Shown piece by piece: positions 3,005 through 26,164 of a stretch of DNA of 64,000 bases. Numbering within the stretch: position 1 is the first letter of the stretch; every line of letters starts with the position of its first letter. The stretch is from Malus domestica (Eukaryota; Streptophyta; Magnoliopsida; Rosales; Rosaceae), in the NCBI RefSeq assembly GCF_042453785.1, contig NC_091663.1, positions 36,167,001 to 36,231,000 on the forward strand, written 5' to 3'. A program made the translations under genes and the position numbers. Under the pieces are notes generated by a model. The model was not told the origin of the DNA and made no database searches. It was given only the letters and a program-made list of their open reading frames with translations.

Positions 3005-5452
3005 TAAAAAGAATTTAATTGGTACTACAAAATTCAATTCATAATGCTAGTGAGTCTCGGGATTAAACTTTTGGGGCGTCACAAATGATAATTTTCTTTA
3101 GTGGTAATTTTTTTTTATACAAACCATAATAGCAGTGGGTTAAATTATTAAATGTTAGATAAGAGAGAGATCGGTGAGGATCAAGCTCCATCAAAGTGCA
3201 TAAATATGATTGTACAGCAGTACAACAATTAAGCAAAAAAATTATTCTGCAAGTTGCGCAGAAAAATCAAAGAGAAAAATGGGTTCACGATTAGCCTCAC
3301 ACATGAAATTCTGATTTAGTCACTGCTAATTACTTTCTAATACAAAGAGATCGGCTTAGGAGTAAAAGTGGAAGCACATAAAGTGACAGTCCTCAAATAT
3401 ATACCACCAGAGCTTCTGCCACGGCCCGCGGCAGTTTTAGAGTAATTAAAACCCTAATCGGAGTTCGCTCAGTGTCGGTAAGATCTGATTGAACCTTGAC
3501 TCAGATGCAGAAAGTGGAGGATACTGCCCTATTTATATAACTAGCGGATAGTGCTACTCACTTTCTTCTATTTGTTTAATATAACGTTCGACGTCTAAAA
3601 GTTGAGAAATTCGGCACCTGAAAGTTGAGAGATGTGTGTGAGATCAAAAGTGGGCGTGGGAATGATACTACACATAACTAGCCACATGATCAAGTGCTAG
3701 CTGGCAAAATCTAACAAACTTCTGTGATTATCAACTGTTTTCGATTTCTGCGTGTTCTGTGAATTTCGTAAGTATCCAATCTTTTATTTTTGCCTCCAAT
3801 TTTGTGACGATGAAAAGTCGTCGATTTTGTTCGAGTAGGGTTTCAGAAGTAGATTTTTGGATCAATCACTAGATCGCTGCTGATGATGAGAAGCATAAAG
3901 GCCATAACCAACGGCGACGTTTATGCGCTCTGTGTGTGGATTCATATTTCCTCCACATACATGGGTCGTTAGTTGGGATGGGGAATGTGCCAATATGCTA
4001 ATCTGAGGCCCCATCTTCCCTTCCCTTTATTCCAAACTCCGTTTTTTAAATCTTAAGGGACTGTTTGATTTCCGAGAAATTGCAAGAATCTGGTTGAAGA
4101 ATTTAAAATCCATAATGTTTCAGTATAAAACGTACATTACTGAGTTTTTATCTTAAAACAACTATACAGAGTCGAGAGTGGAGTCAAATTGATTAATCCT
4201 CTATGTGGCAACCACAATGAACAATAAAAAAGAAGCAATAATCATCGACATAGATTTGTCATAATAGATCAGTAGTAGCAGATCCAAAACTGCAGAGCAC
4301 AGAAGCCATGGCTAAGTGGTGAGACCACACAAATTGCTAGGCGGCACAAGCATACACAAAAAACAACTAAGTCGGGAAGGAAATCACCGTCGACTTATCT
4401 CCACAACAAAGAAGCAGTGCACGCTGGTCCCAACCATTTGCAACGCATATGCACTAGTCACGACTCAATCAGGGTGTATTTCTCACATATTTGGTCAATG
4501 AGGGCGATTCGATCACATATGGCCATGGGTGTGCAACCATCAACGAATCAAGCTAGATTCGCAATAGTTATAGCCCTTGGAGGGTGGATTGGACTCGAAT
4601 ATGAAGCAAGGAAGCGACTTAGCAACTAGAACGCCAACATAGAGATGATTTTGACCCACCACAACCAAAGCCTGACCCAAACCCATGAATCTATCCTCAA
4701 AAGACAACATAGAGATGGTTTTGAGAATGGCACTCCATTTAAGCATGGAGGATTGCTCACAAAATAGTGAGTAGAGAGATGGGGAAGGGGGAGCCGCAGG
4801 GAGGGGGGGGGGGAGGGAAAGAAGGGGGGCTGCCTCCTACACCAAGCCGTAACAAGAGGCCGGTGGTTGGAGGAGCTTTAGGTAGGGTTTGGTGTTTGGG
4901 TTGCGGGGGAGATGAAAGGCAAGAGGTTTTTCAGAACTGGTGTTCCTATTCGTTCAGCTTCATTGGAGCGTCCAATTCGCACACAATGCGAGTTCACCCT
5001 TTTCATTGTTGTAAGTAACACTTGGACTTGGATTAGATGCAAGTCCGCCCTTTTCATTCTTGTAACTAATGCGTGGATGGTAATACCAAGTGGCGGTGAC
5101 ACTTAAAATTTTCAACTCATCAAGAACTGATCTCAAAGTCGGGAAGTGAACCAATCCCACTAATTCTTTGTGGCCAAAAATATCGTTGTTAAAAAGAGTT
5201 GTTTATGGTTTGCTACTAAAAGTGTGTAAAAGTTAAAATTTCTTGCAAAGAGATCAATGTGTTGATTTCACTATGCTTAGGTTCACTGGGTGGGTTCTAA
5301 TTTATTGCTAGCTTCATTAGAGCTTGCAAACCGTGAATGATGTGAATTCACCCTTTTCATTGTTGTCAGTAACATATTTATTGGCAACACAATGTGACAA
5401 CGATCGGATGACTCAAAGTGGGAGCAGGTTTGAAAAAGGATCTTAGAGTGTC
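3005..5452. other. Intergenic region, no gene recognised
   Basis: Short open frames here have no recognisable domain. A phrase of about 25 bases around 'gaattcacccttttcattgt' occurs at about 4985-5010 and again at about 5340-5365, pointing to a small internal duplication. A G-homopolymer-rich patch lies at 4800-4830. Confidence 0.5.
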
Positions 5453-5457
5453 TAGGG

Positions 5458-5847
5458 TGTTGGAATCCAGCAATACAACTAATATAACTAAGTCTAACAG
5501 GATTTGAGAGAAAGATTGTAAGATTTAGAAGATGAAATCAGAGAGAGAGAGCACACACAGAGCATAGCCTTTCAACTTCTATCATTGTATTGCATTATGG
5601 GCATAACAACCCGAAGAGACATATATCTGATGACAAAGATGAGAGAGAGAGAATCATAACCTCAATTCAATCTCAACCAACCATCACAACCTATCTTAAG
5701 ATCAAGACACTTGTCAAATGATAAGCCCTATGAGACTTAATCAACACATCACAATTTTACACAATAGCTCAGCCTATGAGCTGAGACATGACACACATAA
5801 CAATCTTGTAATGTTTACTAATCAGTACAACAACTTACATACTAACA
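5458..5847 (-). repeat. copia-1 3' LTR
   Basis: A 390-bp repeat identical to 10037-10426. On the minus strand it begins TGTTAGTATGTAAG; the TAA of that sequence is the stop codon of the polyprotein, so the last 13 coding bases lie within the LTR. Confidence 0.96.
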
Positions 5848-8800
5848 CTCTCCTTTAAGTTGTGAACTGATTTCACTCCAAGTAGATTTCTCAAGTAAGT
5901 GAACTGCTCCCTTGCCAATGCTTTTGTAAAGATATCTGCCAGTTGCTCCTTTGTAGGACAGTGAATCAAATCAATTACTCCTTGCTGTAATGCTTCCTTT
6001 ATGAAGTGATATCTTCGGTTTATATGCTTGGTCTTCTGATGAAAGATGGGATTCTTGGTAATGGCTATGGCAGATGTATTGTCACAATTCATTGGTGTTG
6101 CAACCGTTTGCATTTCACCAAAATCCTCTAGGACAAATCTCAACCAAGTAGCCTGTGCTGTTGCTTCAGAAGCACTGATATACTCTGCTTCGACTGTGGA
6201 TAATGCAACACATTGTTGCTTGACTGAAGACCAAGAGAAAATCCCATTTCCAAAAGTAAAAGCATACCTGGATGTGCTTTTCATGTCATCCTCTGAACCA
6301 CTCCAGTCACTATCACAGTATCCCATTAAGAGTGTTCCTTCACCTTTCTTATATTCCAAACCAAAATCAAGGGTTCCTTGAACATATCTCAATACTCTCT
6401 TTGCTGTTCCATAGTGCTTGTTAGTGGGACAATGCATAAACCGAGCTAAGAGACAAGCAGCATACATTATATCAGGTCTAGTTGCTGTGAGATACAGCAG
6501 ACTACCTACAATCTGTCTATACTGAGCTTCATCTGCATTTCCACTTCCATCTTCTCTTCTCAGTTTGTCACTTGGAACCAAAGGAGTACTCACTGATTTG
6601 CAATTCTGTAGTCCGAACTTCTTCAGAAGAGATAAGGCATAATTTCTCTGATGAATGAAGATACACTCCTCAGTTTGGATTACCCCCATACCAAGGAAAT
6701 GGTGTAAGAGACCAAGATCAGTCATCTCATACTTAGACATCATCTCAGCTTTGAAAACATCCATTAACTCTTGACAATTTCCAGTATATATAATATCATC
6801 AACATAGATGGATACTATGATCAATTCTGTGTCTCCCTTGTATTTGGTGTACAGAGTTGCCTCACTGATACTTTTCTTAAATCCACAAAGCATAAGATAT
6901 GAGTCTATTTCACCATACCAGGCCCTAGGTGCCTGTTTTAGACCATACAAAGCTTTATGTAATCTGTAAACCTTTTCTTCCTCTCCTTGCACTACAAACC
7001 CATCTGGCTGTTCAACATATACTTCCTCTTCTAATACTCCATTCAGAAAAGCTGATTTCACATCTAGTTGAAATAACTTCCATTTATTCTTTGCTGCCAG
7101 TGCAATTAGAGTTCTAACTGTGTCTAATCTTGCAACAGGTGCAAAAGTCTCATTAAAATCAATTCCAGGCTTTTGTGCATAGCCTTTTGCAACAAGTCTA
7201 GCCTTGTTCTTTTGAACTGTTCCATCCAAATTCAGCTTTGTTTTATACACCCATTTCACTCCAATCACAGGCTTATTTGAGGGTCTTCTCACCAACTCCC
7301 ATGTCTGATTTTTTTCAATCATATTCATTTCATCCTTCATTGCCTTTTTCCAAGCTTCATCCTGTGCAGCTTCATCAAAGGATTCAGGTTCAACAATACA
7401 TAAGTGACATCTCTCATAGATCTCACTCAAATTCCTATACCTCAGTGGAGTATCATCATACTGAGCAGAGACCCGTGAACTACTTGATTCACCAATAGCA
7501 GTAACTGTAGAACTTCCAGCTTGAATTTGAGACCCATCAGATCCTTCTTGTTCATGAGATTCAGACATCTCATCAATTTTATCCACCTCTGAAGACTCAA
7601 TTGCAGATAAAGGAATACAGACTTCCTTGACTTTGTGTTTCTCCCAGTCCCATCTACCATGTTCATCAAAAATTACATCTCTAGACAACAAGACCTTTTG
7701 AGTTAAGGGATTCAGTACTCTATACCCTTTTTCACAGGTTCCATATCCAATGAAAACACCCATGACACTTGTTTCTTCTAATTTGTGTCTTAGATTCCCT
7801 GGAATAAGAGAATAGCAAACTGAACCAAACACCTTCAAATGTTTAACCCCAGGTTTTCTTCCACTGAATTTCTCAAAAGGTGTAGTATTCTTCACTGCTT
7901 TTGTAGGACTCCTGTTAAGCAAATACACATATGTGTTTACTGCTTCACACCAGAGATTGTTTGGAAGTCCTTTCTCAAAGATCATGCACTTTGCCATCTC
8001 CACAATCGTCCTGTTTTTCCTTTCTGCTACTCCATTCTGCTGTGGAGAGTATGCAATTGTGAGCTGTCTTTCTATCCCCAAATCTTCACAAAATTTTCCA
8101 AACTCATTTGAGTTGAACTCACCTCCCCTATCTGTCCTTAGCTTCTTTACATGATATCCACTTTGAAGCTCAACCATGGCTTTAAATTTCTTAAACACAT
8201 AGAAGGCCTCTGATTTGTTTCTCAAGAAATATACCCAGCACATTCTTGAAAAATCATCTATGAAAGTAATGAAATATCGATTGCCACTCAAACTTGATGT
8301 TTGCATAGGACCACACACATCCGAGTGTATTAGTTCAAGAGGTTCCTTTGCTCTCCACATTGATTCTTTGGGAAATGGTTCCCTGTGATTTTTCCCCAGT
8401 GCACAACTTTGACATACAGTTTCACTGTCTTGGATTTCAGGCAGCCCCAAAACCATTTCTTGACTCTGTAACAGTTTGAGACTTCTGAAATTTAGATGAC
8501 CGAACCTCTTGTGCCAAATTCTAACACACTCCTGCACATTTGTCCTCAATGCAAGCTCCTTGTTTGTGTTGAGGATTAAGGGAAAACATCTATTTCCTCT
8601 CTGTTTCACACTGACCACCAGGTTTTGTAAGGATCTATCATCGAACACATCCACTTTATAATCTCCAAATAACAGAAAATAACCATGCTCAGTCATTTGT
8701 CCCACACTTAACAAATTTTCTGTAAGACCAGGTACAAGCATAACTTCTTTTATATATCTTCGACCTTTTACAGTTTCAATGATCAGTGTTCCCTTCCCTT

Positions 8801-9953
8801 CAACTTCAACCAAAACTCCAGTGCCAACTTGGACTTTTGCTTTCACTTTCCTGTCAATATCAACAAGTAGATCTTCTCTGGATGTCATATGATTACTACA
8901 TCCACTATCTATATACCATTCATCACTTATCTTCCTTACTTCTACAGAATGATTTGCATAAAACAAGTTTCCAGTTTCTTCAACCTGATTAGCAAAGTTC
9001 ACATGCTGCACAGTCTTGTTCATATTACAATACCTTGCAATATGCCCAATTTTGTTACACTTGTGACACTTAACTTTGTTTTTAACCCAACACTCTCCAT
9101 AGTGAAGTTTATCACAAAACTTGCACTTATCTCCAGTATTGTTTGCCTCATTTTTCACAGTGAATCCACCCTTATTGCTCCAATCACCCTTGTTACTCCA
9201 TTGTTTCTCTTTTGGCTTAAAATTCTTGTGATATTTGTTACTGTTTGGCTGACCATTGAACTTATTTGACCTCGGGACAAACTTCAAACTAGCAAATGCT
9301 TTCTCCATACTACTCTCTCCATGTCTATCCAACCGTTGTTCATAACCTTTCAAGATAGCTACAACATCCTGTGCATCTATGGTGTCTAAATCCTTAGTAT
9401 TCTCTATCACTGCTGCAATACTATCATAGGACTTAGGTAAACTGATTAACAATTTCTGAACAACTCTTTGATTACTCAGATCTTCACCATAACTCTTCAT
9501 TTGATTAATCAGATCAAACAACTTAGCAATATACACAGAAAGAGATTCACTATCATTCATGCGAGTATATTCAAAATCTCGCCTAAGACCTTGAAGTTTC
9601 ACAGATCTTACTTGTTTATCACCAACGAACTCTTGTTTCAGAATGTCCCACGCAGCCTTCGCACTTTCCTGAGTTGCAATCCTCGGGAAAATTTGGTCTG
9701 AAACTGCACCTTGAATAATACCCAGTGCTCGAGCATCCTTAACTACATTCTCACGCAGCAGCTTCCTCTCCGCCTCTGTGAGTTCCTCTTCCTTCGCCGG
9801 AGCTCTGTACCCACTCTCAACCATATTCCACAGTTCATACGAGCGAAAGATGGTCTTCATTTTGATTTGCCAGAAATCAAAATTCTCACCATTGAAAATT
9901 GGTGCCCGGAGTTCTCCTCCTCCAGATCCTGCCATATTAGATACTCGAATCAC
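5835..9953 (-). CDS. copia-1 gag-pol polyprotein
   Basis: A single frame of 1372 residues. If translation starts at the second Met (9935) the protein begins MAGSGGG, a common form for this family; the first Met gives six extra residues. In order: a gag domain (about 15-230), a CCHC zinc knuckle [14 protein letters not shown] near 297-310 that binds RNA, the aspartic protease motif DSG near 350, the integrase zinc region (H-x-x-H, C-x-x-C) followed by the catalytic core with [16 protein letters not shown] near 611 and [13 protein letters not shown], reverse transcriptase with [11 protein letters not shown] and the catalytic YVDD near 1050, then RNase H with YCDSDWSG and the tail motif KTKHI. 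No stop or frameshift is seen. It encodes everything needed for copying and integration. The exact copia lineage is not assigned. Confidence 0.96.
5848..5856 (-). promoter_or_regulatory. copia-1 polypurine tract
   Basis: On the minus strand this reads AAAGGAGAG, immediately before the 3' LTR. This is the expected primer position for plus-strand cDNA synthesis. Confidence 0.85.
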
Positions 9954-10024
9954 CGCAATAAGCTTTTGCTGTGAATCCGAGACCCACTCGTAGAAACAAC
10001 GCCCAGAAATCTAGATCGAACTCG

Positions 10025-10036
10025 GCTCTGATACCA
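10025..10036 (-). promoter_or_regulatory. copia-1 primer-binding site
   Basis: On the minus strand this reads TGGTATCAGAGC, the classic complement to the 3' end of plant initiator Met-tRNA used to prime minus-strand cDNA synthesis. It touches the 5' LTR with no gap. Confidence 0.95.
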
Positions 10037-10426
10037 TGTTGGAATCCAGCAATACAACTAATATAACTAAGTCTAACAGGATTTGAGAGAAAGATTGTAA
10101 GATTTAGAAGATGAAATCAGAGAGAGAGAGCACACACAGAGCATAGCCTTTCAACTTCTATCATTGTATTGCATTATGGGCATAACAACCCGAAGAGACA
10201 TATATCTGATGACAAAGATGAGAGAGAGAGAATCATAACCTCAATTCAATCTCAACCAACCATCACAACCTATCTTAAGATCAAGACACTTGTCAAATGA
10301 TAAGCCCTATGAGACTTAATCAACACATCACAATTTTACACAATAGCTCAGCCTATGAGCTGAGACATGACACACATAACAATCTTGTAATGTTTACTAA
10401 TCAGTACAACAACTTACATACTAACA
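10037..10426 (-). repeat. copia-1 5' LTR
   Basis: A 390-bp repeat directly next to the primer-binding site. It should carry the promoter for the genomic RNA. A (GA)n tract is present in both LTRs. Confidence 0.96.
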
Positions 10427-11027
10427 TAGGGTTGGGCCAGGAGGGTCTCCTAATGCCTTCTTTTTTCTTCTCATCGAAGTTATTTCACAAATGGTTCTTT
10501 TTATCCGGGGATAGGTGGAGGTTATCTAGATTATGATCCCTATGAGGCTTGTATCGAATCTATATCTCCAACTCGAGTTCATGGACCTGTCATGTGGATT
10601 GGTCATTTGTTTAGCTGAACTTTGATCAAATTGGGAAATTACAACTGGCTCTATAGGGGAATTTTTAATATTTCATGACCTAATTGTAAATTGTAAGTAG
10701 ATCAGTGATGCAAGTTAGAATAGTAGGTAGACAGATTGTCTGGTTTGACTTGCAGGTTTGGTGGTAAGAGTTGTTAGAAGTGTCTGCACATGAACTTCGT
10801 ATATGCTTCGACTTCTACGGTAAGTAATCTCTCAGACTGCCTGCCTGCAACTGTTCCCATTTCCCACTTCCACGTTGATTTTGTTTACATACAGTCAACT
10901 GAAAACTTGTTTAGTTAGCTTTGATATTCTATTCTCTATTCGGATCAGCTACATCTAGGCAGTCTTACTTTTGTTGCCTCATTGGGTGGTGGCTGCGGCT
11001 GTTAAATTGTAAGATAGAGGGCTAGTG

Positions 11028-11822
11028 ATGGATCCTGGAGGACCTGGTGGAGGAGGACCGGGCGGTGGCGGTCCAGGAGGAGGTGGCTGGGGAGGCCCAG
11101 GCGGAGGTGGCTGGGGAGGCCCAGGCGGTGGTGGCTGGGGAGGCCCAGGCGGTGGTGGATGGGGAGGCCCTGGGCCTGGAGGACCTGGTGGATGGGGCAG
11201 CCCTGGAGGATGGGGCGGCCCTGGTGGATGGGGCGGCCATGGACCTGGGGGACCTGGCGGATGGGGGCCAGGGCCTGGGGGACCCGGTGGATGGGGACCC
11301 TTGCCTGGAGGACCTGGTGGCTGGGGCTTTGGCATGGGAGGCCCTTGGGGTCTTGGTTTCATGGGAGGAGGACCTGGCTTTTTTGGAGGGTTTGCTGATG
11401 GATTATGCAGCATGATATCTTCTTGGTAATTACGATAACACACCCTTACAGCATTTTTGTTTCTGATCATTATTCTTATGCACCATTCTGATGTTTATTT
11501 ATTTTGACACTGCTTGCAAAGTTTGTCGTTTCGGCGATTTTAATACTTCTCAACTAGCATCCCGAACTCTACTTGCGAATGCATAAAAAAGTTATACATC
11601 TTCGGTTTTGGAGTTCAGATAAAAGAGGAGTGTTAAAATCGCTTCCCTTTAAATATTCGAAGGTTATGAATTGAAATCTGAAGTGTTTACTTCTTGTTAT
11701 TGCTGGGGAAACTGGAATATTGCAGCTTCTACTTCTTGTGCTGCTGCGGTTTGCTGCATGAATGCTTCGGCGGAGGTCCTCATGGTGGATATGGACCTCC
11801 AGGAGGACCACCTCCCTACTGA
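11028..11822 (+). CDS. Gly-rich protein with Cys-rich hydrophobic tail (paralogue A)
   Basis: Two exons: 11028-11425 and 11726-11822 (intron 300 bp, GT-AG, phase 2), giving 164 residues. The first 115 or so residues are Gly/Pro/Trp-rich repeats of the form PGGGGWGG and GGPGGWG. The C-terminal exon adds a compact hydrophobic Cys cluster, CFYFLCCCGLLHECF, followed by a Gly/Pro/Tyr tail ending PPPY. The arrangement of a disordered Gly/Pro-rich head and a short CCC-containing segment resembles plant CYSTM-like or Gly-rich membrane-associated small proteins, but the assignment to a named family is uncertain. No signal peptide is seen. Its exon junction matches that of the gene at 14435. The antisense frame is also open (proline-rich) only because of the repeat composition. 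Confidence 0.75.
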
Positions 11823-12349
11823 ATCTTGTGATGCCAATTTGTTTTACCACTACACTGTTTATTTTTAGAAGTGTGTTACTTTATTCATTGACCAGGGTAC
11901 AGAGTGTGAATTCTGAATCATTTTGTTAAACTATAACTTTGAATAATCTTGTTCTTTAATCTCTTCCAAATCGATGATGTACTGACTGAGCAATCCTCTT
12001 GAGAAAGAACCTCGTTCTTTTTCTCATCAAATTCAGAAGTCCTTTTGCATTTTTTCCAATTTCTTTTTCCAATAAAATAACGGATTCAGATCATTTTATT
12101 GACATGAGTGTTTATATCGAAAAAAAATTCCAACTACAAGCATACTGCAAAATCTGCCAACCTTTATGTCAAAGGAATTGTGAGATAGAAAGGAGTTCAA
12201 CGACTTGTTGGAGATGCTCATGTAGAAATCGCTCCTGCTCATAGCGTTTTGCTACAAGCACATGATTTTTATTGAAAATTCAAGTGCTGAGAAGAACGTT
12301 TAGGTTGTACATCATTTTACAAAGCATTTTGCCTCTTCTGATCGATGGG

Positions 12350-13270
12350 GCTCAGAGGGAGCTAGCACTGCCTAGTGCCTACAAGTTATAAATATTATTC
12401 TACGGCTGTTTGCTCCCCAAGTAGCGATTGATGCATATTAGGCAGGACTTATGAAACCATCATAAAACATTTTCCTATAGTAATCGCAGAACAAGCGCTC
12501 GTTAGCAAGGTGGACCGGAATGCTACAGGAATTTGGATCTCGCTAACGTCGTTAGCAAGGGATCATCTTGCCTAAATCCCATGGGACAGTACCCGGATCA
12601 TCCTACCACGACCACAACTCATCACCATTCGCCATCACAATTAACACATAGCTAGAACCTAGTGGTTACCCATTTCGGCCAAATGCGTACCATACCATCT
12701 CCACCTGTTTGAGTCATGTCAATGAGTTCAAGAGCCAAATAATCAGCAAAAGATCAAACGCCATTACCAATAGGCCATACATTAAGCGCGCAGTCGCAGG
12801 AGGAGGAGGATCTTCAACCTCCGGTGGTGCTGTCCTCTACATAACCAATCTGTTTAAAGCCAATCAATGTTGCCGGTAGAGAACCCAAAAAGAACCTGGC
12901 CAAGTAATATTGAATTGAATTGACCAAGGTCCCCAAGTTAATTATATATTATATATTGAATTGAATTGACCCCAAGGTCCCCAGGTTAAATTTTTATATA
13001 TATATATATGTGCATAAGATATATATCTAGTTAGTTTTATTGAGCGGATATAAATAGGATTGTGTAAATAGGATTGTGTAAACATATACCGTGCGGCCTA
13101 AAGCTTAACCCTTAACAGTCCATGAACAGTGGAACGAGGTCCCCTCTAACAAGTCGACCGTAAATACGTACTTCTTGCTTATAAGTTTCCAACTTTTTCA
13201 GTGTCCAGACATCCTTACCAACAAACAGAAGATGAAAATGTCTGAAATTAACAGTCACGCTACTTCTTTA
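12350..13270 (-). pseudogene. Decayed NHX exchanger 3' region (exons 9-13)
   Basis: Pieces match exons of the intact NHX gene in the same order and strand. 12400-12530 resembles the last exon (shared 'cggttgatgcatatt'-type and 'accatcat.aaacattttcc.atagtaat' phrases). 12690-12730 matches the exon 11 border (shared 'ccacctgtttgagt' phrase). 12898-12925 matches exon 10 (shared 'gccaagtaatat'). 13160-13260 matches exon 9. The open frame is lost everywhere, exon 12 is barely visible, and exons 1-8 are absent. It sits tail-to-tail with the Gly-rich gene at 11028, as the intact NHX does with its Gly-rich neighbour. Confidence 0.68.
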
Positions 13271-14434
13271 TCCAAGTTTCATGTATTAATTTGTATATAT
13301 TTACAGATTTACTAACAGTGGTCGCTGCAGTGTGAAAACAAAACACGATCACATGACAATCTTTGTCCATGTATGCGGGTTCCAAGTATAATTTGTACAT
13401 GAGAACATGTCTGTGCAATTGTGTCTGATTTATTAGAACTAATTTTTAAGAACAGCCCATTAATTACTCCGCTAATTGTTGACGATCTCATCGAAATATA
13501 GTAAAATATACTCGTTAATTAATTACTCCATTAATTAAATGTTGAGGACTTGACCATTTCAGTCTTTCATTATTTGCGAAATTATAGAATTATTGGCTTA
13601 ATTAGGGACTAATTAATTAAAACATATAAATTGTTGACTTGAATTTATAACTCACTACTTAACTTAACCATAACGTAATCAACTGCATGCAAGTTGCTGA
13701 TGATGTAATTAGTTGTCTGGTATGACTTGTGGTTTTGAGTGAAGAGTTGTTTGATGTGTTAATTTGTACATGTTCACCTTCAAGAGCTGGTATTGTCAAG
13801 ACCCGAGCGTATACTTGCGCGGACTAGTTATATATATGTATGTATATGTAGCAACTTAAAGTTATTATGAATGCATGAATTAAATCATGTATCCTATTTA
13901 TGCATGATGGAACTAATATGCCAAAGGCTTGGTTTACCTAGAAATAAAGTTCAAGTAGAATCATATATTGCAACTAGGTAGTAAACTAAATGGGAGAACT
14001 TGAAGCTTGAGAGTAACAAACAGCAGCTAAGTACTGCTTAAAACCAGTGTCGCCAAAATGAGATTTCAATTGTGTTAAATTGGAAATAAAAGACAGAAAA
14101 ACACGACATATGCTAATTTTCTTTTCAGTATTGAAAAGGTCTCAAGTTCGTATTCTTCTCGGAACCTCCTATTGATAAAAGAAAATTTTGAAAGTACAGA
14201 ATGCATGCCACATGCAAGTCTTGCAACAAATCAATTAGTTATGATATAGAATGAAATATAAAAAGACCTTAAAACAAGTGGGACTAATTGGTAATCAAAC
14301 TCAACTTATTGAGATTTCTATATATTCTTATTGGGATCAGACTGATCAGAGCAACATCTCCAAAGTCCGATTGAAATTAAGTTGTCTTCTTTTGGGTTGG
14401 CATTTGCTACTCTCACTTGTTTAAAGGGTTAGTG

Positions 14435-14883
14435 ATGGCACCTGGCGGCGGCGGAGGAGGCGGTGGTGGAGGAGGGGGTGGAGGTGGTGGTGGTGGAGGT
14501 GGAGGTGGAGGTGGTGGAGGTGGCGGTGGAGGAGGAGGGCCTGTAGGCGGAGGAGGAGGGCCTGGAGGCGGCGGAAGAGCACATGTCAATGTCGCAGGAG
14601 AATCTAGCGGCGCTGCAGGAGTTGACAGTAGTGCTACTTGGTGTTCTTGGTAATTATGATCTGTGACCAACAACCCCTTTATATTTTTATTTCTAATTAT
14701 CATTCTTTTTTATAGAGCATAAGAAGTTATGAAATCAAATCTGAAATGTGTTGCTGTCGGTGGTATTGCAGGATCTTGTGCTGCTGTGGTTGCTTCAATG
14801 ATACTCCCACTAAGCCTAAGGATGACACTCCCGATAAGCCTGGCGATGATACTGCCTCGAAGCCTCTTCTCGTCACTACGTAA
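14435..14883 (+). CDS. Poly-glycine protein with Cys-rich tail (paralogue B)
   Basis: Two exons: 14435-14649 and 14772-14883 (GT-AG, phase 2), giving 108 residues. After MAP comes an uninterrupted run of 32 glycines (14444-14539), encoded by mixed GGN codons, then two shorter Gly blocks and a hydrophilic stretch. Exon 2 supplies a hydrophobic Cys cluster, WILCCCGCF, and a charged Lys/Asp/Pro tail (DTPTKPKDD and similar) ending LLVTT. The splice junction falls at the same place in the Cys segment as in the gene at 11028, so the two are paralogues. The codon that is Cys at the junction of copy A is Trp here. Function is unknown. It ends 727 bp from the end of the convergent NHX gene. Confidence 0.7.
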
Positions 14884-15609
14884 GGAGATAGAGATCTGAG
14901 AGTGTCAATCAGGTGAAGAGAGAAACAAAGAGCATCACATCGAGTTTATTTCAGGGTGATGAGTACAAGTTGAAGTTATGGTGTGAAATTGGAGTCATCT
15001 GTCATGTTGTTATTTCGAATAAAGTAATATTTTACTTACTATCTTAATCTTGTTTTGCGTGGCCTTGTGTAATTCTTTATACTATTTCACTCACGGTTTG
15101 ACCTTTGTCTACTTTATGTCTGTTTCCGACGAGGCTTTGGTTTTATGTCCTCCTCCTTGTATTGACTGAAAACACTATCTTGTACACCAAGGCACAGTAC
15201 AATTGATCCTATTTCTTTCATAAGCTCCATATACAATACTACAAAATATTGTTTGGATGTACTTTTAAAATAACTAAAAGCGTTTTTGGTGAAAATGTTT
15301 TTGGAACCAATCCTTAGTAAAAATGTAAATAAATTTTGAAAAAGCACTTAAATGCTTCCTGGAAGAAGTACATAACTGGTGCTTCTTACAAAAACACTTA
15401 AAGTGCTTTTGGAACCCAAAAACATTTTCCCTAAAAGCGCTTTACATTTTAAAAGCACATCCAAATGAGTCAAACTCTATACACCAAAAACATTTATTTT
15501 TCAGGGCGTATCGTGTTTGTTAGACTGATGAGGCTCAGGAAGAACTGCCTATAAATTATAATTTTGACTATTTACACCAAAGTAACCCAACGAACAATCA
15601 ATCCTGAAG

Positions 15610-18230
15610 TTACAACTCCACAATTTTCTGCTCACTGAGTAACGGTTGATGCATATTTTCATTGGGTGAACCGGCAGCATAAGGAACGAATCCTCTACCG
15701 CCAAAGACAGGACGCATGTAACCATCATCAAACATTCTCCAATAGTAATGGACAGAACGAGTTGGTGTCGTCAAGAGCATGCGCAGGCTGGATGGACGAG
15801 GAATGTTATCGCTAGACATATTTGACTTTGGATCTTCCTCATTAGCGAGGAGCGGCATAGCCAGAGACATCTCCGACTCAGAGGACATCATCATGCTATC
15901 TAAGTGATTCTGTTGCGGCAACAAGAACCTTACGAGAGGCTTAGTCAATAATCCGCACACCTACAATGGCCAAAGACCGATTTGGAATTAAAGAATGAAC
16001 TCATGAGAAAATAGTTAATCATATGAACTGAAAAAAGTTAACCAGCGATTTAGTATTGTACCACATTAGTGAAGAGAACTACTGTTATCGTACTAGTGAT
16101 CATGATTGCAATTCCACGCTGTTGAGTATGCGTTGACATTGCAAACTGAAGAAACACAGCATAATACAAACTTCCTTACATTAAAACACAAATGCAGATG
16201 AATGACGAGTGCTTGTAATTGTACGCAATCTGTATAAACCAAATAAAATATTGGGTGGCAGTAAAAGAAAACTAGGAAACACATTAAATTTGATCCTATT
16301 CTTACCCAATTATAAGCAAGAGCCACGGATACAGCACCACGCATGAGTCCTGCCCACCATACTGTCACCTGTTTGAGTTATGTCGACCAGTCAATCACTA
16401 AGAAATTCAAGAGGCTGAAAAGTTTGAAGTAGCAGATTTGGAAAATAGCTAACCTGTTGCTTAAACCCGATTTTGTCAATCTGAGATGTCCTGGTTAAGT
16501 TTGATAAGAAACATAGAGGAAATACAAAAGCTGCTCTTCCAACAAGAACTAAGCCAAGTAATATCGAACTGACTCCAATTGATGTCCCAGGGCTGTAAAC
16601 GAACAAGGTGTTGTGCGGAAGCGTCAAATATGAAACCAATAAGCTACAATGGCAAAATATGATAAGACAAATAATTCAAATGACACAAGTATTTATACTG
16701 GTTCGGCATAAGCCTATGTTCAGTTCCGAGACGGTCAGGAAATTCCACTAATATCAAAAGGAGATTACAAATAGAGTTTTAACTCTCAAACCCACATCCC
16801 ACATACACCCAATAGCTCTCACTCTCACAAAGAACAAACGGAGAAGAAGAAAATACATACCAAATCCTCCTCTCCCAAAAGCTACACAACATGTAGCAGC
16901 AACATCTTTGATTGAGGGATTACTAACAAAAGGGGATTACAAACAAATGGGAAGGAGCAACACTGTTTCAAATGGGAGAGTCGAACACTCTCCCTAGTAT
17001 GGCTCTCATCTGATGCTGCTCCCCCACCCAACCAAAGGCATAATCGAATGCCTTAATATAACCAAAAGACTCTACCTTCTCTCTCTCCTCTTCTCTCTTT
17101 CGGCTGCACTCATCAACACAAGGCCACTCACATTTTCTTCCCCAACATCATAATTTCTGCATAATCATTAAAGCAAAAGCAACCACATTTTTCTATTTTC
17201 TTACAAGCATCATCATTGTGTCTTTACCCATGATGATGTCCACCAAACTTTTCTTTGTTTAGTTTAAAAGCCGAGAGGCATTTGGCTTGTTGTCCACTTG
17301 GCCACTAATTTGGCCACTATCCAACACAAGGAAAATAAGCTCCATTTGGACGAAAGTGAAAAATGCATGCCTGTCATAATGAGTTATACGTTTTACAAAT
17401 TATATGACGTGCATGTATATAGGTGTTACCTCTCCTTCACGAATTTCCACTTCTCAATGTCCAAGGCATCCATACCAACATATAGAAAGATGAAGATCTC
17501 AGAAACAAACGAGAACGTTGCAAAAGCATGCCTGCACTTGCGGAAATAGCACGTGAGAAACAGACACAAGACATCTTTGTCCAAGTTCTGTATTTTTATA
17601 TACATTTACATCTGTGTGCATTTATATGAGAAAAAGAAATTAAGTTTCGTTGCTACGCAAACTATTGGCAAAGTTGGCTTACTTGGTTGTAACTCTTGAA
17701 CTTTCAGTTACATTATGCCAGGTATAGTGTGACATGACAAGCCCGCAAAAGAAAACGGTAAGAATACCACTTAGATTGAATAGCTGGAAGATGAACAAAA
17801 TTGGTCAGAATTGAACAAGAAATAAATATCTGGAGCTAAACTAGATGGAGCTTTCAGTCCAAGAGGTTATGGAAATCTTACTTCTGCCGCCATATATGAC
17901 AAATAAGCCATTAGAATCATAAGTGCAACTTCACGATCAGTCGAGTGCCTGGACAAATTTTAAAAATTATTATCAGAGAAACAGTGACATGATCATTGAA
18001 AAATAGGGTATTATTATAAGAAATGGTCATCAGCACTACCTTCCGAGGTACAACTTCTTTATGATGTACGCGCTAAGCAATCCAACCTACAAGTGGATAT
18101 CATGCATGGAAATTGATTTAGGTTACATTTCATGAAACGGAGAAAATTTACATGCATGCTCTTCAAACAAACACACACACACACACAGAGGGAGAGAGAG
18201 GGAGACGGAGGGAAGGATGGGGAGGGGGGG

Positions 18231-18268
<38 letters not shown>

Positions 18269-19801
18269 CCGCTGCACCAAGCACCATGCTTGTCAACAAC
18301 AGAAATACGAAATTGCCACTAAACTTCAAGGCAATGGTTGAGTTGATGCGAGAGAGATCAAATTTCTGAATTGCGTTGAAAAGTACCACAGATGTGGCAT
18401 CATTTACAACACCTTCTCCAAAAACTAGACTGTAGAGTAAAGGTGTCTCATCTTGATTAAGCACTTGCAGGGTGCAAACTGAATCTGTAGCCGAGAAGAT
18501 TGCTCCGAGTGCTACAGAAGTGAAACAAAAAATAAGAGCACATAAAAGGCAAACAAAACGAAGTATTTTTCAAATACAAAACAATTATTAGGGCAAACTC
18601 AATTGAATGTTATGTAGACTAAAATAAGAAAGTAACGACGAGATTACCTAGATAATCTCCCATCTCAAGGAAACCAACGTCCAAATTTTTAAACAAATGC
18701 ATTGAACCTGCATCAAGATCATGAAGTTGCAAACATTAAAAACCGTAGCTTTCGTTAGTTTCTCTTGTAATATCAGCCTTACCATGGCATGTTTGGATAT
18801 CTAACCTAGCCATATTATTACGAATGATACTAAACTGCCGACAGCACCCAATGACGTGATTGTCATGAAGTTCTGGAAAAACCGCTTCTTTTTCACCTGA
18901 AATCTGGTGTGGGAAAAGAATGAGACCAGGAAAGGAAAGATAAGTATAAACTTTGGTCACAGAAAAACAATCACAAACAAGCCATGAGGAAAAAGTACCG
19001 ATAAAACCCTAGTTTAAGACACCTCAATATAACACACAATGAGGAATGATGCAAGAATAAAACAACTTAACATTTGTATCCATCCCATTAGAGACATGTT
19101 AAATGCCAAGCAAAATGTTACTTAAACGACTCAGATTTGATCATGATGAACCTTCCCTCCTTTTGAATATATTGCGGCCAAGGAGCACACGCACAAATAA
19201 GCGCGCACACAAACACAAATCACAATGAGAAGGAAGAGATATGAAATAGATACGAAATACATAGCTTACCCGGCGTTAAATATAATAGGCGGCAGAAGAT
19301 ATATAAAGAAGAGATCTTCATTAAATACTAAGATGTGTGAGCTTTTCCCCTTGGTAGTTAGTAGAATAACAATTCCAATACAAAGACCCTGCAATCAAAC
19401 CCCAATAACAGTCATCCACAAATTTCAAAACAATTAGGTAATATCCGATTCTGCTCATAAGTGCTTCTGCTAGACTAGAAACATACTCAGACTTTTATTA
19501 AATATCTAAGTGCTTTTCCAGAAGTACTTACATATTAGTTAACAAATGTGGTTAGAAGCACCTTTGACTTTTCGATTTAGAGAAGCAATCGAATTCCTAA
19601 ACCGGTTCTAAAGCATAAAAATCTGAGGAAACTTACAATGAGAAGCGCTGTTACCGATTCCGTCATCCATCGAGCCTTCTCCAGAAGATGACCAATCACA
19701 ATGCATAAACATAGGAGAACCACGAACAAAGTGATCGAATCTACGGAAGCTTCACTGGTGGCCGATCTCACCCCCAATCTCACCAAAGTAGAGACCTCCA
19801 T
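15610..19801 (-). CDS. NHX: Vacuolar-type Na+(K+)/H+ exchanger, NHX class I
   Basis: Thirteen exons join to 545 residues: 19637-19801, 19270-19388, 18806-18903, 18648-18707, 18270-18511, 18040-18086, 17882-17948, 17683-17783, 17430-17531, 16454-16592, 16306-16368, 16062-16145, 15610-15960. All introns are GT-AG and all phases close. The protein has the family's many membrane segments, the amiloride-binding motif LFFIYLLPPI (81-90), the acidic transport residue in FSATDSV (Asp157) and the Asn-Asp pair of EGVVNDATS (184-185). A soluble tail contains HYYWRMFDDGYMRPVFGGRG. Length and motifs fit tonoplast NHX1-4 proteins, which exchange Na+ or K+ for protons to load vacuoles and set pH. The tail has features seen in both NHX1- and NHX4-like proteins, so no subtype number is given. 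Confidence 0.93.
16609..17326 (-). mobile_element. Solo LTR inside NHX intron 9
   Basis: A 718-bp block with TGTTG...CAACA ends, flanked by the 5-bp duplication caagg (16604-16608 and 17327-17331). Typical LTR phrases are present ('ttatactggttcggcataag'). No internal domain or second LTR is present, so this is the scar of an LTR-LTR recombination. Only 16 bases separate it from exon 10 (upper end 16592). Orientation is inferred from the TGTTGGATAG start on the minus strand. Confidence 0.85.
18170..18266. repeat. Compound (AC)n/(GA)n microsatellite at NHX intron 5 donor
   Basis: An (AC) run, a G-rich interruption, then a pure (GA) run. On the gene strand the (CT)n starts four bases after the intron 5 GT donor (GTGACT). 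Confidence 0.93.
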
Positions 19802-20285
19802 CGGCCACGAAACCCTACCAAAACTTCACCGTCCCAAAAAAATAAAAAATAAAAATCAAGCATTCGATCGTATACGCTAATGAAGATTTTAACCAAACGT
19901 TAACAAAAATTTAATGAAATTCAAACACATAGAACAAATACACTAAGTGCGATTTTCAGGTAAAGCTTAAGGCTTTAAGAAATCTTAAAAGAAAGTTTCC
20001 TTTTCTTTCTAAGTAAAAAAACTTTCTTTTCAAATTTTCTTCCACTTTCTCGGAAACCAAACAGAAGTCAGAAAAATAACATCGCTCACCTGTGATCGCA
20101 ATCCACAGCAGAAGGAGAGAGAATTCGAGTCGGAGTACAATCGGCGTAGGCGGAGTTTCAGATACAGAAGAAATCAAAGAGTTCTAGAGAGAGAGTGACT
20201 GCGAGGGAGTTATTAACGAGTATTTAGAGAGAGAAAAGCAGAAACCTGAAAGACCCCGAAAGAAAGGAGAAAGGAGTATTTATAG
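19802..20285 (-). promoter_or_regulatory. NHX 5' UTR, UTR intron and TATA box
   Basis: On the minus strand a TATA-like ctataaatac lies at 20276-20285. A good donor, ACAG|GTGAGC, lies at 20089/20090 and an acceptor, TAG|GGTTTC, at 19815. Together they predict a 275-bp intron in the 5' leader (19815-20089) ending 13 bases before the ATG. Leader introns are common in NHX genes. This is prediction without transcript support. Confidence 0.55.
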
Positions 20286-20550
20286 GCAACGGTGACGGGG
20301 ACTGTTGGGTTAGATACGGCGGGAGATATACGGCCGTTGGATTGAAGTGGGATCTGGATCTAACCGTGTTGTGCAGTCTACGCGACGAGGAAATTATAAT
20401 ATTCCCCGCCAATTGGGCAACTAACAGCAACGGCCGGCTTTGAAGTTTGAGTAGTTGTTGCTTATAATTAGTCGTTGTTGCTTATAATAACTACAAAAAC
20501 TCTGACCTTGTTTTTGTAGACGATTAAGGAAAAGGAAACAAATTAATTAA

Positions 20551-20700
20551 AGGGGTGTGCTATCCACACACCCCATTTTACTTCTCACACACTCCTTGAT
20601 GATTTATGTCCGTTGATCTTCTTCAATTCATCCGATCCGACGGCCGAAAATTAAAAAGGTGTGTGAGAAGTAAAATGAGGTGTGTGGATATCACACCCCT
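20551..20700. mobile_element. MITE, family 2 (150 bp, AGGGGTGTG ends)
   Basis: Terminal inverted repeats of about 42 bp begin aggggtgtg(c/a)tatccacac and end in a tgtgagaagtaaaat-type arm, with few mismatches. The flanks are a 7-bp duplication, taattaa (20544-20550 and 20701-20707). The centre (20590-20650) is unrelated spacer. A shorter relative is at 48218. Confidence 0.85.
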
Positions 20701-20707
20701 TAATTAA

Positions 20708-23700
20708 AATGAGAAATGTTAGCTACATTTCCCTTTTTTATCTTAATTGTCATTCTCACTTGTTTCGAGGACAAATTTTTTAATGTGACGGATTACGACT
20801 TAGTATATCAAATATAATAATACAATTAATTGAAAATTTGAGAAAAAAATTCTAACAAATTATATCATTACTCTTGATGTATCAGACCGTATTTTATGCA
20901 ATGAAATGATGTGATCGTTGATGGTTGAATTATTACTTAATTACTGATTAACGTGCTTATTTTTTTATTAGTGACACATCATTTAATTTACAAATTTAAT
21001 TTAAAATTTTCGTCTTCCCAACGTTATCTCCTAATTACCCAAAGTAAAACTCTATTTCCCAAGTCAAGTTGGACATTGACAAATGAGAGCAGGACAAGAG
21101 TACAAATAGATATCCAATACAGAGATGCCACTTGGCATTTTTACATTTTATTCCGACATTTGGCTCCATTCTCACAAATAGCTTCACTTCTACCAGCAGC
21201 TTTCCAACAAACTTAAATCTCTATTTTTAGCATCCAATACTACGGTATGCTGGTATTTTTTTTTACTTAGAAATGAGATGTTTTAGTTATTCAAATTAGG
21301 CTGTTCATTGTATGACTTAGCTGAACTTCCCTTCCTTTTAATGTAAAAAATATCGATGCACTCAAAAAATCTTATTTTTTTGCTATATGCACCCATGAGA
21401 ATATTAAAGGTGACAACTTCTTCAACTTGGTCAGTTTGCCAACCATACAAACCAGAAGAGAATCGTCATTAGCGATGAGTTTCAATTTTAGAGCTTTGTT
21501 TACTTGGTTGATCTTTGCAGTCTGCATTGTGCCTCGAACCTAATATGGACAGCTTCCGCTGCCGGGACAACAAGAGCTATCGAGCAAAGGCTTCCAAAAC
21601 TACGATCAATGCAAACGGTACTCCTACTCCTAGACATCCTTTTCTTCTCCACTTGCTGACTTTTCTTTTGCAAATTTTCTAGCTTCCTTTCCAAATATGC
21701 AGGCTGCCTTCTTTGCCTGCTTCCCCAGCACTTCAAACCAAACCCAACGTGATCCAAATACAATTGCAGATTCAACGTCAATGGATGTCGACTTTCCTTC
21801 TTAAGATGATCATCATTCACAACAAATGCAGATTCCTCGTCCATGCACGCTCGTAACAATAATCTTTCCTTAAGCAGATTCTTCAAATGAGGCAGATATA
21901 ATATCCAAATTCATCTGCCATTTTTATACTTATTTAAGAAAAAAATAGTCCCCTTTGTAAAAATTGATCAAGTCTCTTGAGTTTTCATCATCAATCTTCA
22001 CAAGCCATCCATCAAAAACAGAAGTAGCAATCGTACTTGAAACATTAGACCATCGGCCAAGACGAGAACTAAATTTTCTACACAGTCACAGTGATCTTTG
22101 GTCGCTGACCTCCCAGTTAATGAAAACTATCCACCAATGACACTACCCCATATTGAAAACTAGGTGCATTTGTCCAGACAAGAAATAAGCATTTGGAAGG
22201 ACTACGTGACTGCGTCTGGATACATACCTATTCACTCAAATCTGGAGAGAAAAAGGTTCAATAACCTTTATCACGAATTATCCTATGAGAGCAGGACAAA
22301 GGTACAGAGATGCCAATTTTTCATTATATCTGAACATGGGTGGTACACCACGTGTTTTTATATAAGTGGTAGGAAATTTCATTTTTGTAAGTTATTAACT
22401 TTTTAACACACATATCCCACGATTTGTATAATAACACGTAGTGTATCATCTCGTATTCCGATCACACTGAAAAATCCCTTCCAAAAATTCTAGAACGGAT
22501 TGGTTCATGTCATTGTCATAGATAATACTTGTGTGCAATTTAAGCGATCTTAACTTTTCAACGGTCGAATCATATAGCCAAAATAGTAAATATGCCAATA
22601 TCTAGTCTCTATTTCTGCAATACTTGTGTGGCATTAAATGCTCATAACCTTGCAACAATTCACATAATATGGTAAACATGTCATTATTTACTTACTGTGC
22701 GACAATATGTGTGCGCCATAAGTGCTCACAACCTTTCAACGGTACAATTCACATAACGAAAATAGTTAATTTTGCAATATCTACTTATTGTTATGACAAA
22801 ACTTAGAACCTCGCAATTGTCAAATTTCCAAAAACAAAACAGTAAAATTACGTCAATATATATTCATTATTACGACAATACTTTCGCGCCATTAAGCGCT
22901 CAGAAACTTTCAACGGTTGAAAAAAATCTAACCATTTAAAACCAAATCCACTCCAAATCAATAAATTAAATCCAACGGGTTAATGCAAAAGTGTTCAAAG
23001 GGGAGGTTATGCCCGAACCACTCTCCATTCCACTATCATGTCAAAATTGTTCAAATGCCATGTTTAATCTTATCAATCCATTGTTGGGTTGGGCTAAACT
23101 AGAAAAACCAAAACCCATTAATCCAATCCATCCAGAACTATCCAAACCCGGAACCAAACTCGAATTCGGACAATAGGAACTAGGAAGTATATGGATAAGG
23201 AGGAGGGAGTGTATTGGTAACAGAACCCATCATCTGCCATCACAGTGTTCTCTTCTCTCAGCGGTGCAGCGCAAAAACACTGATCACCAAAGCCATGTAA
23301 ATCCTCCGCGCCCAAATTCACATCATTTTCGCAAATGGGTATCAGTCTCTGACTCAAAATCTGGTCCTGTAAGCTGGTTTCTGAGGTTGGTTTGGCTCAA
23401 TCTCTGTAGAAGTGTGAAGCTTTAATGGTTTATCCGAGACGTTAGACTTTAAGTTTCTCGTAGGGTGATTTTGCAACTGTTGGAAAGAGAGATCTGTGGG
23501 AAAATATCAGATTTTGATTCTATTTGGCGGTTTGATCTGTACTGGGTATGTTTCAGTTATTGGATTTATCAATGATATATAGGATGGTGTTTATTGGATT
23601 CACATTTGAGGGAAGAAATTTTATATTGAATTGTTAATGGTTGGCTACTTTGATTGAAAGCATCAAACTTTGGTGGTTTAGGTTTCTGGGTTTTGTTTCT

Positions 23701-23837
23701 TAGGGCTAATTATCTTACATTTCATGGTGAAGTTCTGGTTTTTTGTGATGAATGTGGGTTAATCTGGAGAGGTTGGAGGGTTTGTACAAAGTTTTGCGGT
23801 TTTGAGTTTTGCGAAGGCAAGGGTTAGGGAAGCAGCG
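20708..23837. other. Intergenic region before the TLP gene
   Basis: AT-rich sequence with no supported gene. A minus-strand open frame of 128 residues at 21500-21886, rich in Arg/Lys/Ser/Leu, has no domain I recognise and no splice context. A weak SINE-like remnant lies near 21240-21370. The last few hundred bases (from about 23200) are probably the TLP 5' leader and promoter, as they contain pyrimidine-rich and TTG-rich plant leader-like sequence. Confidence 0.4.
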
Positions 23838-26164
23838 ATGTCTTTTAAGAGTATGATTCAAGATATGAAAGGTGAGTTGGGGAGCATTTCTAGGAAAAGC
23901 TTTGATGTTAAATTTGGAATGAGATCGAGGTCTCAGCGGGTTGTTCAGGATACCTCGTTTCGCGTTGATGCTTTGAAGCAGAGTTGTTGGGCGAATATGC
24001 CTCCGGAGCTTTTGAGGGATGTGTTGATGAGAATAGAGGCCTCTGATGATACATGGCCTCCGAGGAAAAATGTGGTGTGTTGTGCTGGTGTTTGCAGGAA
24101 TTGGAGAGAAATCATGAAAGAGATTGTGAAATCCCCAGAAGTTTCGGGCAAGCTGACATTCCCGATCTCTTTGAAGCAGGTTTGTGAGACCGGCACGCAT
24201 CCTTCCTAGTAAAGATTCTTGTTCATATATTTTCCAATTGTGCTTTATAATGTATTTATTTTTCGTTAATATGTTTCTTGGTATAACTTAGAATTGATAT
24301 TCAGAGTTAGGAAAATATGCTTATATCGTATGTAACAATGCTAGCTGGCAAATTTTGACATGCATATTCATGAATTATGATGGACACTGTGTATACTGGT
24401 ATGAGTGTTTCACTTAGTAATGGTTATAACGCTCACGTTATGTGATCTTTATAATTTTGAAGGACCAAATGAAAAGTTTTAATGTATAGGGTAGGCAACA
24501 ACTGACTAGCTCAAGTGTTGATGTTTTGTAACATTTTGGATGGATTTGAAAGTTTTCCAAAGACGATAACATTCTTGTGATTGATGTGATTTTTTAAAAT
24601 TTGACATATATTCTCATTAAGAGTTTTCGTAAGGCTTCTTTGATTAATTTCTTATTACTCGACACGTTAAAATTTTGTAACATTTTGGACTGATTTGAAG
24701 GTTAACATTCTTGTGATTGATGTGATTTTTTAAAAATTTGACATATATTCTCATTAGAAGTTTTCATAAAGCTTCTTAGATTAATTTCTTATTACTCGAC
24801 AATCATGTTGTTATCATATCTACCCCTTCTCCATTGAAATATCAGTTGAAGTCTTTGTTTACTATTTTGCAGCCTGGTCCAAGGAACTCCCTCCTGCAGT
24901 GTTATATAAAGCGGAGTCGTAGCAACCAGACATATTATCTTTTTCTGGGTTTAAGTCAAGGTAATTACTGAATGTTTTGTCCTGTGTGGTTGTGCTTGCC
25001 AAGTTTTTCTTTTATAGGGTTGTCTATAATGCTCATGGTAAAAGGTTGATAAGGTTTTGATTTCGGGTTTCATTAAGTTGCTAAAACATAGATTTTAAGT
25101 TCAGGTTTTCTTCCCAGATGTAAATATAATTGTTTTAGCATTTTGTACTTGCCAGCCTCAACTGATGATGGGAAGTTCCTTCTTGCGGCAAAAAAGTGTA
25201 GACGCCCAACCTGCACAGACTACATCATCTCTTTGAATGCCGAGGTTGTGTCAAAAGGGAACAGTGCCTTTGTTGGAAAACTCAGGTATGCTCATCAGCC
25301 CTGTAACATGACTACATCTTGATCATCTTTTAGCCCTAAGTTGTTTGGCCCATTTTCCTCAAACAGATCAAATTTTCTGGGCACTAAATTCACAATCTAT
25401 GATGCGCAACCTACTAATAGTGGAGGCAAAGTCACTAAATGTCGTTCAACCAGGCTTGTGAATAAAGTCTCTCCCAGAGTTCCTGCTGGCAACTATCCTG
25501 TGGCCCACATTGCTTATGAGTTGAACGTCATGGGTGCCAGGTATGATAAACTTCTTTTTGAAACTTCCTGGTCTTTGCCTTTAAATGAAACTAACGTTGA
25601 AGACAATTTACCAAAAGCTTTAAGATGGTAACTTTCCTTTTTCTTGTGGTTTTTTTGTGAGTAACATTTTATGTAAATACTGTCAATATCAGAGGTCCGA
25701 GGAGAATGCAGTGTGTAATGGACTCCATCCCTGCCCGTGCTGTTGAGCCAGGAGGTGTGGCACCAACACAGACTGAATTTCTGCATAGCAACACGGATAG
25801 TTTTCCATCCGTCCCTTTTTTCAGATCAAAATCAACCCGGACAGAGAATTTCCCATCTCCACTAGAGTCTGGTGAGAATGAAGGCATGCTGGTATTGAGA
25901 AACAAGGCGCCTAGGTGGCACGAACAGCTCCAGTGCTGGTGTCTCAACTTCAATGGACGAGTAACAGTTGCCTCAGTCAAAAATTTTCAGCTGGTTTCTT
26001 CTCCGGAGAATGGAGTTGCGGGCCAGGAGCATGAAAATGTCATTCTTCAGTTTGGAAAAGTGGGTAAGGATGTCTTCACCATGGATTATCGGTATCCAAT
26101 CTCAGCCTTTCAGGCATTTGCCATTTGCCTTAGCAGCTTTGACACCAAGATTGCGTGTGAATGA
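23838..26164 (+). CDS. TLP: Tubby-like F-box protein
   Basis: Five exons: 23838-24179, 24873-24960, 25156-25285, 25367-25540, 25693-26164. All introns are GT-AG, and the join gives 401 residues, the usual size for plant TULPs. An F-box lies at about 49-100 ([18 protein letters not shown]). From 115 on is the tubby domain, with [10 protein letters not shown], the internal [12 protein letters not shown] stretch, and the C-terminal signature [20 protein letters not shown] ending FDTKIACE. Tubby domains bind membrane phosphoinositides; the F-box links the protein to SCF ubiquitin ligases. Plant TLPs are plasma-membrane-tethered and can be released to the nucleus under stress. The start at 23838 gives the conserved [13 protein letters not shown] beginning. 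Nothing appears broken. Confidence 0.95.
24525..24800. repeat. Tandem duplication in TLP intron 1
   Basis: Two copies of a 130-150 bp segment run from 'gtaacattttgga' to 'ttcttattactcgac' (about 24528-24664 and 24677-24799). They are clearly related, with a small deletion in the second. The duplication is confined to the 693-bp intron 1. Confidence 0.85.

Follow-up and report, generated by a model that had tools for sequence, protein, structure and literature searches.

Results

Two Gly-rich genes and an intact exchanger

The 64,000-nucleotide window analysed here (C3:36167001-36231000), from the 651-Mb, 19-contig genome of the apple Malus domestica, contains two small glycine-rich genes, Gly1 and Gly2, each of which is followed tail to tail by sequence of an NHX Na+/H+ exchanger (Table 1). 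Behind Gly2 the exchanger gene is complete, as an earlier note on this DNA had proposed: with exon limits set by hand, the 13 exons (19801-15610, minus strand) encode 545 amino acids, 12 of 12 introns are GT-AG, and there is no internal stop. The product covers the whole Na_H_Exchanger domain (PF00999), from position 4 to position 374 of the 375 in the profile, at 180.9 bits (cut-off, 26.2), and scores 242.8 and 106.3 against the NCBIfam CPA1 models TIGR00840 and TIGR00831, below their own cut-offs of 251.25 and 279.6. NHX proteins exchange Na+ or K+ for H+ at the vacuole; by analogy this member, which from Arabidopsis sequences we take to be of vacuolar class I, most likely does the same. It shares 90.6% of 544 residues with an intact partner gene on contig C11; over 544 codons Ka is 0.044 and Ks 0.218 (Ks 0.18-0.22 by two methods), a substitution pattern that indicates purifying selection on both contigs.

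Table 1. Features of the Gly/NHX locus, in window positions
Feature	Position	Strand	Basis
Gly1 upstream block, with a second copy upstream of Gly2; marks the left edge of the duplicated segment	10665..10783	+	alignment, controls
Gly1, Gly/Pro/Trp-rich protein, 164 aa	11028..11822; exons 11028-11425, 11726-11822	+	gene model
NHX pseudogene	12398..13305	-	chain, tblastn, exon-by-exon scoring
Pseudogene: exon 13 tail with 47-base gap	12398-12495	-	
Pseudogene: exon 11 start and intron flank	12684-12719	-	
Pseudogene: exon 10 piece	12885-12918	-	
Pseudogene: exon 9	13160-13252	-	
Pseudogene: intron 8 piece	13250-13305	-	
Stretch expected to hold the duplication junction (NHX intron 8 side / Gly upstream side)	13306..13643	.	
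Gly2 upstream block	13644..13759	+	alignment, controls
Gly2, 108 aa, 32 straight glycines	14435..14883; exons 14435-14649, 14772-14883	+	gene model
Complete NHX Na+/H+ exchanger gene of 13 exons (545 aa)	15610..19801	-	gene model, Pfam

The exchanger genes of the two contigs differ in their introns. A stretch of 726 bases in intron 9 on C3 (16607-17332), starting 14 bases from the exon 10 acceptor and with no inverted repeats found in it, is absent on C11 and is likely an inserted element. Intron 6, present on C3 (window 18040-17948), is missing from the C11 gene, in which exons 6 and 7 are contiguous with the same junction residues (39710668-39710781). Since the C11 base before this junction matches the end of the C3 intron (CAG) and not that of the C3 exon (AAG), deletion at the DNA level would fit this loss better than copying from mRNA.

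Gly1 and Gly2 have the same exon junction, a single phase 2 intron that interrupts a codon behind its first two bases, TG, just ahead of a CCC block. The junction codon reads TG/C (Cys) in Gly1 and TG/G (Trp) in Gly2, the Cys-to-Trp change described earlier, and Gly1 has two residues more than Gly2 between the junction and CCC. The 32 straight glycines of Gly2 are spelled by a mixture of codons (13 GGT, 12 GGA, 5 GGC and 2 GGG). Aligned to each other, the 3' parts of the two genes score 48 (maximum in 50 controls, 34), and the Cys block of Gly2 scores 57 against the C3 copy of Gly1 (maximum of 1000 shuffles, 40) and 48 against the C11 copy (shuffle maximum, 44). The C11 copy of Gly1 is 118 amino acids long; between contigs Ka is 0.038 and Ks 0.466 over 117 aligned codons, in which the repeats align poorly, and the last 52 codons give Ka 0.052 and Ks 0.225. 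By these ratios Gly1 looks like a real, constrained gene, and for Gly2 the splice signals and the mixed glycine codons are only hints of the same. Neither protein matched Pfam at E up to 1, and no likeness to the Gly tail at E 0.1 lay beside other NHX genes in any of five ten-kb stretches picked from the genome's 69 PF00999 places.

The DNA upstream of both Gly genes also matches, again as the earlier note had stated (10736-10783 against 13713-13759; 81% of 48 columns, E 3e-6). Window segments 10670-10759 (matched at 13687-13735) and 10730-10819 each beat 50 of 50 controls; the outermost part of the block, to 10665 and 13644, is an extension of the local alignment without a control of its own, which places the start of the likeness left of Gly2 at about 13644, or at 13687 when controlled matches alone are counted. 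Farther out, the Gly1 left flank at 10495-10581, which C11 has, is not repeated left of Gly2, and the score of segment 10490-10579 was equalled by 12 of 50 controls. The distance from upstream block to start codon is some 430 bases greater in Gly2 than in Gly1 (window 13760-14290), perhaps through an insertion in the Gly2 promoter region.

A decayed partial copy of the exchanger gene

Between the two Gly genes, six collinear pieces at 12411-13305 match NHX 15629-17610 on the same strand with a chain score of 235 bits; the controls went no higher than 73.2 bits (100 dinucleotide shuffles) and 72.3 bits (40 pieces of the window). When NHX exons were scored singly with 15 flanking bases (intron 8 without flanks), exons 9, 10, 11 and 13 and intron 8 beat all of 50 control pieces, about half of the exon 11 match being intron flank; the score of intron 10 was reached by one of the 50. 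Remnants of exons 9 to 13 had been expected here in the right order. The order was borne out and so were four of the exons, exon 12 being the exception, its score reached by 33 of 50 controls. For exons 1-8 and 12 as a group, 10 to 48 of the 50 controls score as high, and the NHX 5' flank (19802-21500) is not distinguishable from controls. Intron 1 beats 50 of 50 controls with a match out of order at 12230-12288 (36.5 against a control maximum of 32.5), which may be a short repeat that the two places share. With tblastn the relic is weak: the best four matches have E values of 0.002, 0.002 (both exon 13), 0.034 (exon 9) and 0.59, and ten further listed matches (E 1.4 to 7.6) are chance-like.

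The 47-base gap in exon 13, the stops and the undetected exons 1-8 and 12 leave the relic without coding ability, and it most likely does nothing. It ends on the right at 13305, opposite position 17610 in intron 8 and about 70 bases from exon 8. From there to the Gly2 upstream block, comparison of 13306-13643 with window 15400-24000, window 5000-11100 and the C11 stretch gave nothing at E up to 1, except where the final bases of a chance-like C11 match (13290-13308) reach into it. The remainder of NHX, its 5' flank and the Gly1 left flank have no match in this interval, and no trace of exons 1-8 or the 5' flank was found in 13306-13712. A 29-base likeness joins the pseudogene intron piece (13276-13304) to DNA upstream of Gly2 (13749-13777); either homology at the junction or chance in an AT-rich stretch could account for it.

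The partner locus on C11

On C11, Gly1 is followed by a shorter relic and then by the intact NHX gene, in a region collinear with C3 and inverted relative to it. Of the 16 matches listed for the window against C11, thirteen place window 1-26431 in one inverted collinear order at C11:39703415-39716687; past window 26431 this order is broken by the other three. Where window 27311-28189 and 28747-29267 match C11:39700135-39701732, the orientation is opposite to that of the rest, which suggests a local inversion at window 26431-29267.

No Gly2 was found at the matching place on C11 when 30 kb were searched by tblastn with the Gly2 tail. The single match that this search gave, of 11 residues (E 0.005; 39721325-39721357), was set aside, being chance-like and outside the locus, about 7 kb beyond Gly1. 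The C11 sequence joins the relic (at the equivalent of window 12728) directly to the NHX 3' flank (window 15464), an arrangement that would follow if Gly2 had been lost together with the outer relic in one step. Between Gly2 and NHX, C3 has an inverted-repeat element (15252-15465) with 20-base ends that are 95% complementary, to which sequence at C11:39695344-39695522 is related. The C11 joining point may be merely where this element interrupts the alignment, and a 7-base likeness there (AATGAGT) need not be microhomology, its C3 side being the edge of the element.

The 47-base gap in exon 13 is common to both relics, and the intact NHX gene of each contig has the missing bases. Across the 94 columns common to both relics and both genes, all 4 informative sites group the two relics together, at distances of 0.269 between relics, 0.16 between the NHX genes and 0.28-0.31 between relic and NHX. 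By the common gap and these sites, the duplication and the damage to the relic precede the split between C3 and C11, a rough dating that draws on a short alignment with few sites. A second relic piece of 100 columns has 7 differences between the contigs (K 0.074); given 0.269 in the one piece and 0.074 in the other, the age of the duplication is resolved no further than before the split.

Upstream of Gly1, window 5458-10426 is a young LTR retrotransposon with identical 390-base direct repeats (5458-5847 and 10037-10426), a 5-base target duplication (TAGGG) and one long open frame, which we take to be of the Copia type. It is absent on C11, where 8 bases separate the matches to window 5409 and 10495.

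From the collinearity and the Ks of 0.18-0.22 we infer that C3 and C11 are partners from the Maleae whole-genome duplication. A literature search found no paper that states this partnership, and none of the titles listed in others concerned this locus. The available text of one source (PMC8558331) places a proposed Maleae genome doubling at about 50 million years ago.

Discussion

The collinear chain and the extent of the pseudogene support the proposal of the earlier note that a Gly/NHX pair was duplicated in tandem and that one exchanger decayed. The history that we favor, at a probability of roughly 0.6, is a duplication whose end fell inside NHX and left the first exchanger copy truncated from birth, with a later loss of Gly2 on C11. 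The starting point would have been an ancestral tail-to-tail pair of a Gly gene and an NHX gene, from which a segment reaching from about 10665, just upstream of Gly, to about 17611 in NHX intron 8 would have been duplicated to give the order Gly1, NHX 3' half (exons 13 to 9), Gly2, complete NHX. Without a promoter and exons 1-8, the first NHX copy could have made no transporter and would have decayed, losing 47 bases of exon 13 before C3 and C11 parted; Gly2 and the outer pseudogene would afterwards have disappeared from C11.

Because survival is limited to the part from intron 8 to the 3' end, with exons 1-8 and the 5' flank undetected, a segment ending inside NHX fits better, and we infer that truncation occurred at the duplication itself rather than later. 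The chief competing history, which is that of the earlier note and is possible if on the doubtful side, has both genes duplicated whole, with a first NHX that was complete and redundant and that later lost exons 1-8 and its promoter by deletion, and then decayed. Deletions are indeed evident in the pseudogene, in the 47 bases gone from exon 13 and in an exon 12 that is undetectable in the middle of the remnant, and had exons 1-8 been deleted later from a complete copy, the sequence would be identical to that of a copy truncated at birth. In addition, at least 338 junction bases are without assignment, and truncation at birth leaves the out-of-order intron 1 match without explanation. However, duplication of a whole copy requires an extra large deletion, of all eight 5' exons and the 5' flank, that stopped near the Gly2 upstream block, and no trace of those exons or of that flank was found. 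A duplication from about 10665 to about 17611 gives the observed order in one event, and a whole copy followed by deletion needs one more; we put truncation at birth ahead by about two to one.

A history in which the C11 arrangement of Gly1, short remnant and NHX is the older, and Gly2 a later insertion on C3, is suggested by the absence of Gly2 from C11 and by the direct joining of relic to NHX 3' flank there. We rejected it as very improbable: the C3 pseudogene continues past the C11 breakpoint (12728) in order, through exons 10 and 9 and intron 8, and Gly2 has diverged from Gly1 far more than the two Gly1 copies have from each other. The possibility that the NHX-like phrases at 12350-13270 are due to chance, with which the weak protein-level matches (best tblastn E 0.002) would agree, is practically negligible, since the DNA chain, at 235 bits, scores three times as high as the best control (73.2 bits, among 100 shuffles and 40 window pieces) and the same gap recurs on C11.

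The statement that one member of the pair was kept twice and the other lost needs two amendments. It holds on C3 and fails on C11, where Gly2 and the outer pseudogene are missing, so that the Gly copies fared differently on the two contigs; and the word "lost" suits the exchanger poorly, as the pattern of remnants fits a first copy that was never whole better than the loss of a whole gene. The event is duplicate-gene evolution of an ordinary kind, well resolved here, and overturns no known biology. The relic is badly worn, yet the earlier note placed it correctly. Its interest is that the unequal fate of duplicated neighbors may be set by the position of a breakpoint and not by selection on dosage or function, and that a partner contig dates the event against the C3/C11 split and reveals a different second step.

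Comparison with known systems

Like plant NHX exchangers of the CPA1 group (PF00999), the intact gene has a full-length domain; five other PF00999 loci fetched from the same genome match it exon by exon, and the solved structures nearest to it by sequence are NHE6, NHE9 and one more named only as an exchanger. The adjoining relic is the sole unusual point seen that sets it apart from other NHX loci.

The Gly proteins, perhaps small membrane-associated proteins, resemble CYSTM proteins (PF12734) in having a low-complexity N-terminal part and a C-terminal Cys block, which in C11 Gly1 reads LCCCCLLQECF, a spelling similar to what we take to be that of CYSTM. They differ from CYSTM in the Gly-rich N-terminal part, in a tail beyond the Cys block, and in a Pfam score below the cut-off, on which we did not accept them as members: the C11 Gly1 tail reaches 10.1 bits against a gathering score of 25.2 (E 0.97; a shorter piece, 0.93), with none of 10 shuffled versions matching PF12734, and neither the C3 Gly1 tail nor the Gly2 tail matched it. 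CYSTM members are described in the available text of two sources as tail-anchored and as acting in stress responses (PMC8049917, PMC10030403). That the Gly genes form a divergent CYSTM-like membrane-protein branch, kept beside a vacuolar exchanger by joint salt-stress regulation, with the exon 13 piece of the pseudogene controlling Gly1 in antisense or yielding small RNAs directed at NHX, is a speculation to which we attach very little weight.

The relic itself resembles HvARM1 of the Triticeae, a partial copy of HvPUB15 from an old duplication that, in the available text of its source, acts in mildew resistance (PMC6092874). Unlike HvARM1, the partial NHX copy has a broken frame and is eroding, and C11 lacks part of it. 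Its closest counterparts are the unprocessed, or duplicated, pseudogenes that arise by partial tandem duplication, in which, as here, introns and order are kept, coding ability is lost and the parent adjoins; the relic is collinear with its parent and retains intron sequence in the intron 8 piece. It does not differ from them in kind, and what this locus adds is a collinear partner contig by which the event can be dated against the C3/C11 split.
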